Of a DNA stretch of 49,437 bases, positions 29,923 through 33,552 are shown piece after piece. The stretch comes from Clostridiales bacterium. GTDB taxonomy: Bacteria > Bacillota > Clostridia > Lachnospirales > Lachnospiraceae. The stretch spans positions 1 to 49,437 of the forward strand of contig JAQXIP010000014.1 in the NCBI GenBank assembly GCA_029007845.1, given 5' to 3'. The notes beneath the pieces are model-generated. The model worked only from the letters and a program-made list of their open reading frames with translations. It ran no database searches and was not told where the DNA came from. A program made the position numbers and the translations under genes. How positions within the stretch are numbered: the stretch's first letter is position 1; each line of letters opens with the position of its first letter.

Positions 29923-31314
29923 ATGTATCAAATTGATTTTCAACATCCCGGACATATTTACTTCATGGGCATTGGTGGAATCAGCATGAGTGGATTTGCA
30001 CAGCTTCTTTCCGAAGCCGGCTTCACAATCTCAGGTTCTGATTCAAAGGAAAGTGACATTACCCGTCACCTGGAATCCCTTGGCATCCGGATCCACTACG
30101 GCCAGAAGGCAGAGAATATTACTTCCGGCATTGACCTTATCGTGTACACTGCTGCCATCCATGAAGATAACGAAGAATACATTGCTGCCAAAAACGCCCA
30201 GATTCCTATGATGGATCGTGCTGAGATGGTAGGACAGGTTATGAAAAACTACCAGAATGCACTGGCAGTTGCCGGAACCCACGGAAAGACTACGACAACT
30301 TCCATGCTGACACATATCTTTCTTGCGGCAGACTTAGACCCTACCATCTCCGTGGGAGGGATCTTAAAAGCAATCCACGGCAACATCCGGGTTGGCCAGT
30401 CAGGCAATTTTATCACAGAAGCTTGCGAATACACGAACAGTTTTCTGAAATTTTATCCGACTGCAGCCATTATTCTGAATATAGAGGCAGAACATCTGGA
30501 TTTCTTTAAAGATTTAGCAGACATCCGCCATTCGTTTCACCAGTTTGCATGCAGACTGCCGGAGAATGGCATTCTGGTAATTAACGGAGAGATTACGGAC
30601 TATCCAGAGATCACCGACGGAATCGCATGCCCGTATGTTACATATGGTTTTCAGACAGAAGACGGCGCTTCCTATGATTATATGGCTTCCGATATTCATT
30701 ACGATGAATGGGGCTGTGGTCATTTTACCTTATTAGAGCATGGGACACCAGCCGCCCAGATTGACTTGAATGTACTGGGTCAGCATAACGTATCCAACGC
30801 ACTGGCCGCCATTGCCATGGCACGCCATTTCGGCATCTCCTACGAGCAGATTCAGAATGGCATCCAGACCTTTACCGGTGCAGACCGCCGTTTTCAGAAA
30901 AAAGGCGAGTGGAACGGGGTTACCATTATTGACGATTATGCCCACCATCCTTCTGAGATTAAAGCTACCCTTACAGCTGCAGCACGTTACCCTCACAAAA
31001 CACTGTGGTGCGTATTCCAGCCGCATACTTACTCCCGAACAAAAAAGTTTCTTCCGGAATTCGGAGATGCCCTGGCTCTGGCAGATAAAATAGTACTGGC
31101 TGATATCTATGCTGCCCGGGAACAGGATCCTGGTGATATTTCCTCCGATGATATCCGGAAAGAACTGGAAGCGGCAGGAAAAGAAGCTTATTATTTCCCA
31201 AGCTTTGGCGAAATTGAAGAATTTTTATCAAAAAATTGTGTCAACGGCGATGTGTTGATAACTATGGGCGCCGGAGACGTTGTAAATATTGGAGAAACAC
31301 TGTTAGCCAAATAA
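29923..31314 (+). CDS. murC: UDP-N-acetylmuramate--L-alanine ligase MurC
   Basis: 463 residues, normal length. GHIYFMGIGGISMSG (UDP-binding), VAGTHGKTTTTSM (ATP loop), ITEACEYTNSFLKF, and DDYAHHPSEIKATL in the C-terminal ligase domain are all diagnostic. It adds L-Ala to UDP-MurNAc in the cytoplasm for peptidoglycan. AAAGGA lies eight bases before the ATG. It is the first plus-strand gene after a run of minus-strand genes and diverges from glgC. Confidence 0.98.
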   Translation: MYQIDFQHPGHIYFMGIGGISMSGFAQLLSEAGFTISGSDSKESDITRHLESLGIRIHYGQKAENITSGIDLIVYTAAIHEDNEEYIAAKNAQIPMMDRAEMVGQVMKNYQNALAVAGTHGKTTTTSMLTHIFLAADLDPTISVGGILKAIHGNIRVGQSGNFITEACEYTNSFLKFYPTAAIILNIEAEHLDFFKDLADIRHSFHQFACRLPENGILVINGEITDYPEITDGIACPYVTYGFQTEDGASYDYMASDIHYDEWGCGHFTLLEHGTPAAQIDLNVLGQHNVSNALAAIAMARHFGISYEQIQNGIQTFTGADRRFQKKGEWNGVTIIDDYAHHPSEIKATLTAAARYPHKTLWCVFQPHTYSRTKKFLPEFGDALALADKIVLADIYAAREQDPGDISSDDIRKELEAAGKEAYYFPSFGEIEEFLSKNCVNGDVLITMGAGDVVNIGETLLAK

Positions 31315-31447
31315 TTATCCACACTATCCACAAAAAGCGGTGCATTTCTTTCACATGCTGATTGTGGATAATTTTTTGTGGTTTTCCAATGTTTCCACCA
31401 TTTTATCCACATTATCCACCGTTTTCCAAAAAAGAAATGTGGATAAA
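31315..31447. promoter_or_regulatory. cluster of DnaA boxes between murC and the DnaD-like gene
   Basis: Four perfect TTATCCACA boxes in alternating orientation, at 31315-31323 (+), 31363-31371 (-), 31403-31411 (+) and 31439-31447 (-). There are also two one-mismatch copies at 31324-31332 and 31412-31420, making six in 133 bases. They directly precede the promoter of two primosome-type genes. The first pair can also form an 11-base stem followed by TTTTTT, so that part could double as a long-loop murC terminator. DnaA binding is inferred from the consensus. Confidence 0.7.
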
Positions 31448-31465
31448 TTCCCGTTCTTCTGCCTA

Positions 31466-31494
31466 TTTCCAAAGCCGGTTTTCTGTGCTATAAT
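31466..31494 (+). promoter_or_regulatory. promoter of the DnaD-like/helicase-loader genes
   Basis: TTTCCA (31466-31471), 17 bases, perfect TATAAT (31489-31494). It begins 19 bases after the last DnaA box, so a bound protein could touch or block polymerase. Confidence 0.65.
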
Positions 31495-31537
31495 GCCATT
31501 GCCATAAAAACCGGCATACCATCTGGAGGGTATTTTC

Positions 31538-32530
31538 ATGAATGAAATTGCATTATCGTCTTATCCGGTTCCGTACACCATTGTACCGAATCAATTTATT
31601 GACCAATATATGGCAGATGCGAATGGGGAATATGTAAAGGTGTTTCTTTATCTGCTCCGCTGCATGGGGCAGAACACGGAAAGCATTACCGTTTCTTCCA
31701 TTGCAGACCAATTAAATGTTATGGAGGGAGATGTTCTTCGGGCTTTTTCTTATTGGGAAAAGCAGAACATCCTGACTCTTTCCCGCGATGCCTCAGGCAC
31801 ATTGACCGGGCTTCAGCTCTCTCTTCCTTCGCAGGACACCTCTTCGCAGGACACCTCTCCTGTCCGGTCCTATACGGATGTTAATCTCTCGGAGGTGACC
31901 ATTACAGACGAAATCAGTGAACTGATTATGACTTTGGAGATGTATATGGGACGCATGATGAAACCGGCTGACACCCAGCTGATCTGTTTTCTATATGATG
32001 ATCTGGGATTCTCTACTGAGCTGATTGAACATCTTTTTGATTACTGTATCTCAAAAAATAAAAAAAGCCCGTCCTATATTGAAGCCGTTGCCCTCGCCTG
32101 GGCAAAGGACGGCATTGATACCGTGGAAAAAGCAGATGCTTCCATCGCACAGTATAACACCGCCTATCAGACTGTTTCAAAAGCATTTGCCTTAAACCGG
32201 GCGGTTGCACCGGCAGAGCAGAAATTTATCGACAAATGGGTATCAGTCTGGGGATTTTCGGAAACGATGTTAAAAGAAGCCTGTTCCCGTGCCCTTTTGC
32301 ATACAGGGAAACCGGACTTCAAATACACAGACCGGATTCTGGAGAACTGGCATAAAGAAGGTGTCACAACTCTGGAAGCGGTAAAATCCGCTGACCAGTC
32401 CTATAACAAAAAACAGGCGGCAGCTGCCAAACAGCAGACACAGCCGTCCGGCCGTTTCCAATCATTTTCCCAGAGAAACTATTCGGAAGAAGAATACCGG
32501 GAAATCGAAAAAAAATTACTTCGTAAATAA
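31538..32530 (+). CDS. DnaD-like primosome protein with two DnaB_2 domains
   Basis: 330 residues. An N-terminal winged-helix region (about 10-85) is followed by a short linker and two copies of the DnaD C-terminal (DnaB_2) domain. Each ends in the Y-x(n)-W motif: YIEAVALAWAKDGI (about 180-195) and YTDRILENWHKEGV (about 260-275). In Bacillus, DnaD and DnaB remodel origin DNA and help load the helicase; the two-domain form is common in Clostridia. A 15-base tandem duplication in the linker gives SQDTSSQDTS. The gene is followed 26 bases later by the helicase loader, so the two form an operon. Confidence 0.88.
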   Translation: MNEIALSSYPVPYTIVPNQFIDQYMADANGEYVKVFLYLLRCMGQNTESITVSSIADQLNVMEGDVLRAFSYWEKQNILTLSRDASGTLTGLQLSLPSQDTSSQDTSPVRSYTDVNLSEVTITDEISELIMTLEMYMGRMMKPADTQLICFLYDDLGFSTELIEHLFDYCISKNKKSPSYIEAVALAWAKDGIDTVEKADASIAQYNTAYQTVSKAFALNRAVAPAEQKFIDKWVSVWGFSETMLKEACSRALLHTGKPDFKYTDRILENWHKEGVTTLEAVKSADQSYNKKQAAAAKQQTQPSGRFQSFSQRNYSEEEYREIEKKLLRK

Positions 32531-32556: not shown

Positions 32557-33552
32557 ATGGCACTGAAAAATACACAATACCACGAAATTATGAAACAATA
32601 TGAAGAACGGCAGAGCCGGAACCATTTTCAGATGGAAAAACGCCAGGAGGAAATCCGCCTTCACATTCCGGAATATGAAGAACTGCGCTTAACGATGCTG
32701 TCGCTTTGCCTGGAACGGACAAAGGCATCTCTTGGTTCTTCTGAACGTTCTAAAGAAGAACTGGAGAACGAGATCCAGCTTATTTCCAAACAGAAGCAGG
32801 AACTGTTAATCGAGGCCGGGTATGAACCAGATTATCTCGAACCTGTCTATACCTGCCCGGACTGCCGGGATACGGGCTATATTGATGGAAAAGAGTGCCA
32901 CTGCTTCCGGGAAACCGTAGCTGACGTTTTCTATCATCAGTCATCCCTGCACCCGGTTTTAGAAAAGGAAAACTTTGATACCTTCTGCCTGGATTTTTAT
33001 GACCGGACAACCCCGGATCCCCAGCTTTTCAAAACGCCTTATCAGAATATGTTGGAAATCCTCGGAAAATGTCATTCCTTTATCGATCATTTTGATCTTC
33101 CGGACTTTTGGGAATACCCTCATAATCTTCTTTTTGTAGGCCAGACAGGGGTAGGAAAAAGTTTTCTCTCCCACTGTATTACGAAAGAATTGCTCCAGAA
33201 AGGGCATATGGTGCTTTACCTTTCCGCTGTGGAGCTTTCCCAGTTATTTGAGCAGAACAAGTTCAGCAAAGATACCGGGGCAGACCAAAAAGAGCAATAT
33301 GAAGATCTATTCACCTGCGACCTTTTAGTCATAGATGACCTTGGCACAGAAACGATTACATCCTTTACCATATCGGCACTGCTCGACTGCATTAACCGCA
33401 GGGAGGCATCCCGGCATGCCACCATTATTTCATCCAATTATAATCCTCTGGAATTACAGAAACTATACAGCGAGCGGTTTAGTTCCCGGATCATGGCAAA
33501 TTACCTGTTTCTCCCGATTATCGGAGAGGACATCCGGATCCGCCAGTTATAA
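32557..33552 (+). CDS. DnaC/DnaI-type replicative helicase loader
   Basis: 331 residues. An N-terminal helical region, then a probable zinc site (CPDCRDTGY..KECHC, about 96-113), then an AAA+ domain with Walker A VGQTGVGKS (about 197-205), Walker B LLVIDDLGTE, sensor SSNYNPLEL and an arginine in YSERFSSRI. DnaI/DnaC loads DnaB-type helicase on DNA together with DnaD-like proteins, which matches the preceding gene. A GGGAG-type ribosome site lies close before the ATG. Confidence 0.93.
   Translation: MALKNTQYHEIMKQYEERQSRNHFQMEKRQEEIRLHIPEYEELRLTMLSLCLERTKASLGSSERSKEELENEIQLISKQKQELLIEAGYEPDYLEPVYTCPDCRDTGYIDGKECHCFRETVADVFYHQSSLHPVLEKENFDTFCLDFYDRTTPDPQLFKTPYQNMLEILGKCHSFIDHFDLPDFWEYPHNLLFVGQTGVGKSFLSHCITKELLQKGHMVLYLSAVELSQLFEQNKFSKDTGADQKEQYEDLFTCDLLVIDDLGTETITSFTISALLDCINRREASRHATIISSNYNPLELQKLYSERFSSRIMANYLFLPIIGEDIRIRQL

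Follow-up and report, generated by a model that had tools for sequence, protein, structure and literature searches.

Between the murC gene and two primosome genes, a Lachnospiraceae genome carries a dense group of putative DnaA boxes, which raises the question of whether these boxes control the downstream genes, hold DnaA away from the replication origin, or accompany the end of murC. The window, i.e., the whole stretch of DNA that was analysed, comprises 49,437 nucleotides of a 2.28-Mb draft genome. A sequence-only reading had described four perfect and two near-perfect boxes in 133 bases, ending 19 bases before the promoter. Four exact copies of the motif TTATCCACA (31315-31323 and 31403-31411 on the plus strand, 31363-31371 and 31438-31446 on the minus strand) and two plus-strand copies with one mismatch (31324-31332, CTATCCACA; 31412-31420, TTATCCACC) were indeed found at 31315-31446; the span is 132 bases, one fewer than given, and the last box is separated from the -35-like hexamer by exactly 19 bases (31447-31465). 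The view of these boxes as a single cluster held in part: all six are present, whereas they form two separate sub-arrays, A and B, with one box doubling as a terminator arm. The locus contains the following features.

29923..31314, plus strand: murC (TIGR01082, 466 bits).
31315..31332, plus strand: sub-array A, two abutting head-to-tail DnaA boxes (31315 exact, 31324 with one mismatch; motif search).
31325..31370, plus strand: terminator-like hairpin of murC with a T run behind it (RNA folding, -21.5 kcal/mol, z -2.5).
31363..31371, minus strand: exact DnaA box doubling as the 3' arm of the hairpin (motif search and RNA fold).
31403..31420, plus strand: sub-array B, two abutting head-to-tail DnaA boxes (31403 exact, 31412 with one mismatch; motif search).
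31438..31446, minus strand: sixth box, exact, with few counterparts in relatives (motif search).
31466..31494, plus strand: dnaD promoter with a weak -35 (TTTCCA), a 17-bp spacer and an extended -10, TGCTATAAT.
31538..32530, plus strand: dnaD/dnaB-like primosome protein of 330 aa (two stretches each of PF07261 and TIGR01446).
32557..33552, plus strand: DnaI/DnaC-like AAA+ helicase loader of 331 aa (NF005304, 338.6 bits, above the cut-off).

The dnaD-like and helicase-loader genes form a two-gene operon, and the cluster sits between this operon and murC, the TAA stop codon of which directly adjoins sub-array A. Among PDB sequences, the DnaD-like protein matches DnaD (8ojj, E 3.7e-6). Its predicted structure (mean pLDDT 77.5, pTM 0.37) yielded a single PDB match below E 0.001 in a fold search, again DnaD (9a5c, E 4.7e-5, low TM), and thus supports membership in the DnaD family, no more. 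The helicase loader also matches DnaC (6qel) and DnaI (4m4w).

The murC-dnaD intergenic region of the window (223 bp) holds 6 boxes, whereas 2000 dinucleotide shuffles gave 0.10 on average and never more than 2, and chance was therefore dismissed as the origin of the cluster. It is the densest box spot of the window, any other 250-bp stretch holding at most 2 boxes. The entire source genome contains 56 exact boxes, compared with 9 matches to a reversed motif control; as read by eye off the list of these 56 matches, a density of at least 3 exact boxes per 250 bp is reached at three places: the murC-dnaD cluster, upstream of hpf (C21:552-693), and upstream of dnaA. Because the motif also clusters upstream of dnaA, and because the DnaA of this genome resembles solved DnaA proteins, the motif is probably the DnaA box of the organism. 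The alignment to the solved proteins is full-length, and the DNA-binding domain has kept the GGRDHTTV stretch, which we take to be the part that reads the DnaA box.

Conservation of the cluster was studied in 61 genomes of the order, one per genus. The loader gene was found in 59 of them and 56 were evaluated; no dnaI match was obtained in G033 and G060, contig ends truncated the locus in G020 and G038, and no dnaD was found in G047. The murC and dnaD genes are adjacent in 49 of the 56 genomes. Forty-four of the gaps between them, including that of the source genome, are at least 100 bp long: at least one box is present in 42/44, at least two in 40/44, at least three in 34/44, and at least one abutting head-to-tail pair in 33/44, while the five gaps under 100 bp contain no boxes. 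When the 44 gaps (14,255 bp) were pooled, 196 boxes were counted versus 6.6 in shuffles, and 64 abutting pairs versus 0. At least two boxes occur in 30 of 32 gaps within the family of the window and in 10 of 12 from other families of the order, the four gaps below this number being those of G023, G027, G044 and G058. A second locus set (44 named loci, Eubacterium ramulus and Roseburia porci among its members) gave at least two boxes in 26 of 27 evaluable linked gaps and abutting pairs in 23/27; at least two boxes were found in 0 of 16 unlinked loci, some of which are truncated. The Roseburia porci locus, L010, carries five boxes. The box counts of the second set include both L008 and L035, two contigs of one Roseburia MAG, each with murC-dnaD-dnaI and an identical cluster layout, which is probably an assembly or binning duplicate. 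Listed there as a short gap is L019 of Lachnospiraceae bacterium TWA4, where only 19 bp separate murC from dnaD and no boxes remain, at a distance of ~714 kb from dnaA. A class-wide search identified dnaI in 114 of 118 genomes; 29 loci plus that of the source genome were inspected over 170-500 bp upstream, and at least two boxes were found in 0 of the 25 dnaI loci examined outside the order. The link of the boxes to the primosome genes, proposed earlier from the window, is thus backed by comparison (40/44 and 26/27 gaps, together with the preferred distance from B to the promoter described below), and what related genomes retain includes the boxes, rather than the murC stem alone.

The arrangement of the boxes is retained as well. 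The first box of sub-array A starts at most 6 nt from the murC stop codon in 32/44 relatives, and a common layout has boxes at 0, 9 and 21, plus an opposite-strand box ~39 bp past the second, which is often a hairpin arm ahead of a T run. Sub-array B, which in the window starts 88 bp past the start of A, comprises in relatives a single plus-strand box or a few that abut. Minus-strand boxes close to the dnaD promoter are few among relatives in the promoter-anchored set.

At its upstream end, the cluster overlaps a structure with the properties of an intrinsic terminator: past the murC stop codon, a stem is followed by a T run, with 31325-31333 (box 31324 providing the 5' arm) pairing with 31362-31370 (box 31363 providing the 3' arm). 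This terminator covers only part of sub-array A and box 31363. A comparable arm and T run were detected in 25/44 and 16/26 relatives of the two locus sets, and not in 19/44; the arm is a perfect DnaA box in just 4/25 and 3/16 of such hairpins. L019, with its 19-bp gap, and L035, from the same MAG as L008, were excluded from the sets used for the hairpin and for the phasing described below.

At the downstream end, the boxes hold a constrained place relative to a promoter, as expected for DnaA-regulated promoters. In the window, this promoter is composed of a -35-like hexamer (31466-31471), a TG (31486-31487) and the -10 TATAAT (31489-31494). An extended -10 was found in 39/44 gaps by a scan that favoured the extended form, and the TT of the weak -35 is retained in 92-94% of these 39 gaps. 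Between the end of the final plus-strand box and the -10, the window has 68 bp; among 41 gaps this distance is 42-82 bp in 31, including 67-70 bp in 13, and falls outside 42-82 bp in 10. In the two locus sets, the position of sub-array B varied least when measured to the -10 (sd 13.0 and 11.5), compared with the ATG (34.8 and 26.7) and the murC stop (71.6 and 42.3), a comparison restricted to boxes lying within 30-100 bp of the -10, a choice that biases it towards a low spread at this element. Measured between the first box of B and the -10, distances were grouped near 76-78, 85-88, 96-97 and 105-109 bp, for which periods of 9, 9.5, 10 and 11 bp are not cleanly separable. By eye, an inverted repeat (GCCGGTTTT at 31474-31482 and AAAACCGGC at 31507-31515) was seen to flank the -10 of dnaD; it is possibly an operator, or a product of chance.

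The two sub-arrays are phased with respect to each other. Measured between the first boxes of A and B, the spacing has a period near 11 bp in both locus sets (R 0.593, n=29, local-jitter p 4e-4; R 0.677, n=21, local-jitter p 2e-4), although these p-values are optimistic owing to shared ancestry. Neither 9 nor 10 bp gave a peak for this spacing, and an artefact of the 9-bp box register was ruled out as the source of the signal (R 0.07 at 9 bp). When the murC stop, which is usually 0 to a few bases from A, was taken as the starting point, phasing fell to 0.30 towards B and 0.17 towards the -10, which makes it a property of the boxes. With exact boxes only, the A-B phasing was weaker (p 0.018 and 0.074), and it was absent from the four genomes belonging to other families. 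The simplest reading of these distances is that DnaA molecules on A and B would stand on the same side of the DNA and meet via a loop.

Taken together, we are somewhat more inclined to accept than to doubt that the region is a two-part DnaA-binding control element of the dnaD-dnaI operon, maintained across the order, with DnaA oligomers, a loop and an action on the promoter. Short head-to-tail oligomers of DnaA would fill the abutting boxes of A, at the murC stop, and those of B, ahead of the promoter; only by analogy do the abutting direct repeats fit oligomers of ATP-DnaA. The oligomers on A and B would lie on one DNA face and probably be brought into contact by a loop of about 90-190 bp, and DnaA on B, the downstream end of which is usually 42-82 bp before the -10, would act on a promoter whose extended -10 is good and whose -35 is poor. 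Since in most cases B does not overlap the core promoter, activation or loop-mediated repression is likelier than simple blocking, and we lean slightly to activation as the sign of control over dnaD-dnaI. The same boxes would also absorb DnaA, so that promoter control is compatible with the role of a sink, and the cluster possibly titrates DnaA as well. For a DnaA-reactivating, DARS-like role, also suggested earlier from the window, no evidence was seen. The recurrence of one layout across a large group of gut bacteria suggests that DnaA helps to set the amount of the helicase-loading machinery.

The strongest competitor of promoter control, possible but rather improbable in our judgement, is an origin-near DnaA sink of the kind found in B. 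subtilis, which would tie up DnaA after replication and delay the next initiation, the adjacency to dnaD being historical. The cluster is indeed off-origin, with several boxes in a short stretch (6 in 132 bp) outside oriC: dnaA of the source genome, and with it oriC, is on a different contig (box region C46:10758-10946), and in three measured genomes with the cluster the distance to dnaA is about 43, 136 and 237 kb. The number of boxes is on par with that upstream of dnaA (6 versus 7 in the source genome), and the one genome with a distance of ~714 kb, TWA4, has lost the cluster (a single case, with its 19-bp gap). Removal of six such clusters abolished normal timing in B. subtilis, according to the available parts of PMC5295017 and PMC13220808. 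Furthermore, boxes are retained beside murC in the absence of dnaD there in G030, G046 and G047 (two boxes in G047), G030 and G046 keeping them despite a different following gene, which argues against a purely promoter-linked role. At L172 of G046, two exact boxes are present between murC and a gene that, judged by eye, resembles elongation factor P, dnaD being elsewhere and box-free. In G039, a gene is inserted after murC and the boxes remain near dnaD. G053 was scored as unlinked through a contig break; among the matches listed, its murC contig has a box pair followed by dnaD.

A similar cluster is also present upstream of hpf, encoding a ribosome hibernation factor (G000:C21:543-693 in the source genome, L189:543-693). 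Of the genomes that had a match, 30 of 57 were inspected for hpf loci and 30 of 51 for dnaA regions. At least three boxes were found at 12 of the 30 hpf loci (L237, L238, L248, L249, L251, L254, L258, L259, L260, L262, L263 and L266), and all 12 have an abutting pair, often with a single box 52-53 or 41-42 bp ahead of it, i.e., about five or four helical turns. Conservation of the hpf cluster implies that primosome genes are not the only ones to have such arrays. At oriC, abutting pairs were found in only 2/30 loci, and their scarcity there makes the abutting layout a mark of off-origin sites. An exceptionally box-rich oriC is that of the relative G016:C132 (L192 and L221), with 25 boxes ahead of dnaA, 19 of them exact, and 11 towards dnaN, abutting pairs included. 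One family of the order has the loader gene and dnaA on one contig, ~2 kb apart (L219, G047:C9).

What a sink does not require is a fixed promoter distance or helical phasing, and both are observed. In addition, dnaD genes located away from murC have no boxes in any of the six testable genomes, although murC is mostly box-free in these unlinked genomes too. Given the exceptions (G030, G046, G047, G039 and the unlinked dnaD genes), the link to the primosome genes is strong rather than absolute, and a partly gene-independent role as a sink is plausible alongside promoter control.

It is unlikely that DnaA bound to A acts chiefly on murC or on read-through, by blocking or pausing RNA polymerase and insulating the dnaD promoter. 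The position of A next to the murC stop in 32/44 relatives, the box that it shares with the terminator-like hairpin, and the persistence of A with murC in G030 agree with such an effect, which would leave sub-array B, its distance to the promoter and the A-B phasing unexplained; the hairpin itself was not detected in 19/44. Even less credible, and in our view very improbable, is that the boxes are a mere by-product, representing arms of the murC terminator and low-complexity repeats. Box 31363 is a hairpin arm, and the hairpin fold and the relatives led us to accept this explanation for part of A and to reject it for B, which lies outside the hairpin and is conserved equally to A; the 64 abutting pairs versus 0 in shuffles also speak against it.

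The place of the locus in the replicon was assessed by GC skew. In the single-contig genome G035, the skew changes sign somewhere from the 1,390-kb sample to the 1,528-kb sample, an interval that brackets dnaA (1,436 kb), and the dnaI locus at 1,674 kb is located beyond the flip, 237 kb away from dnaA; in G057 (15 of 20 samples), the flip interval of 970-1,130 kb contains both dnaA and dnaI, which are ~43 kb apart and non-separable. A run resembling a DnaA-trio was found in 0/44 gaps, by a search too insensitive to be of use, as it recovered only 4/30 of the dnaA-dnaN regions serving as positive controls. Despite a box count similar to that upstream of dnaA, a second or true replication origin is thus extremely improbable, being rejected on the basis of the G035 skew.

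YabA restrains DnaA in B. subtilis. None of the 61 genomes had a YabA match above its cut-off, while the B. subtilis and Lactococcus controls were positive. A tentative extension of promoter control, which we regard as less than probable, is that in the absence of YabA the two phased, looping DnaA arrays tune the start of replication via the supply of the loader and of DnaD, which in turn would restrain and use DnaA, and constitute, together with the hpf cluster, a small conserved set of off-origin switches that abutting boxes would mark. The conserved region at the primosome operon is a concrete candidate for how initiation is limited in Clostridia without YabA, and in this abundant gut group DnaA control may extend to the helicase-loading step via transcription. 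The abutting-box layout, rare at oriC, can be used to find further off-origin DnaA loci, of which hpf is the first example.

DnaA-box clusters outside oriC are known in B. subtilis (Okumura et al. 2012, as cited in the available text of PMC5295017 and PMC13220808), where removal of six of them leads to early initiation (same sources). Like the murC-dnaD cluster, they group several boxes closely together at a place other than oriC. Among the sites that the available parts of these two sources name, none is at dnaD or dnaB-dnaI, and the murC-dnaD cluster differs in its abutting boxes, its two phased sub-arrays and the promoter distance kept across the order. Eight gene sets are named as direct DnaA targets of B. 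subtilis in the accessible portion of PMC8203912, with dnaD and dnaB-dnaI not among them there; the same portion mentions predicted DnaA boxes at Caulobacter dnaB. These promoters resemble ours in having DnaA boxes upstream, and the Caulobacter target is also a replication helicase gene, whereas the predicted target here is an operon for DnaD and a helicase loader, and Caulobacter belongs to another phylum. B. subtilis DnaD inhibits cooperative DnaA binding (PMC5295017, available text), so that a link from DnaA to DnaD, as we infer it, would close a feedback loop. The E. coli loci datA and DARS1/2 are likewise off-origin DnaA-box loci (PMC5295017 and PMC13220808, in part), datA working with IHF; B. 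subtilis is described as having neither datA/DARS loci nor IHF (PMC13220808, available text). DnaA boxes are reported to be denser near the origin in E. coli (PMC12371093, in part). Box phasing matters for the function of the Thermotoga maritima oriC, and direct repeats in E. coli are described as strengthening head-to-tail oligomers of ATP-DnaA (both from the available text of PMC10316083); phasing is common to the Thermotoga origin and to the non-origin cluster studied here. For C. difficile, the mode of DnaA regulation is stated to be unknown (PMC7561715, in the text available). A literature search, with subscription journals mostly outside its coverage, returned no report of the murC-dnaD cluster and none on DnaA boxes in connection with Lachnospiraceae. 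In summary, control by off-origin DnaA boxes is known in kind, while the target, the architecture and the order-wide conservation found here appear to be new.
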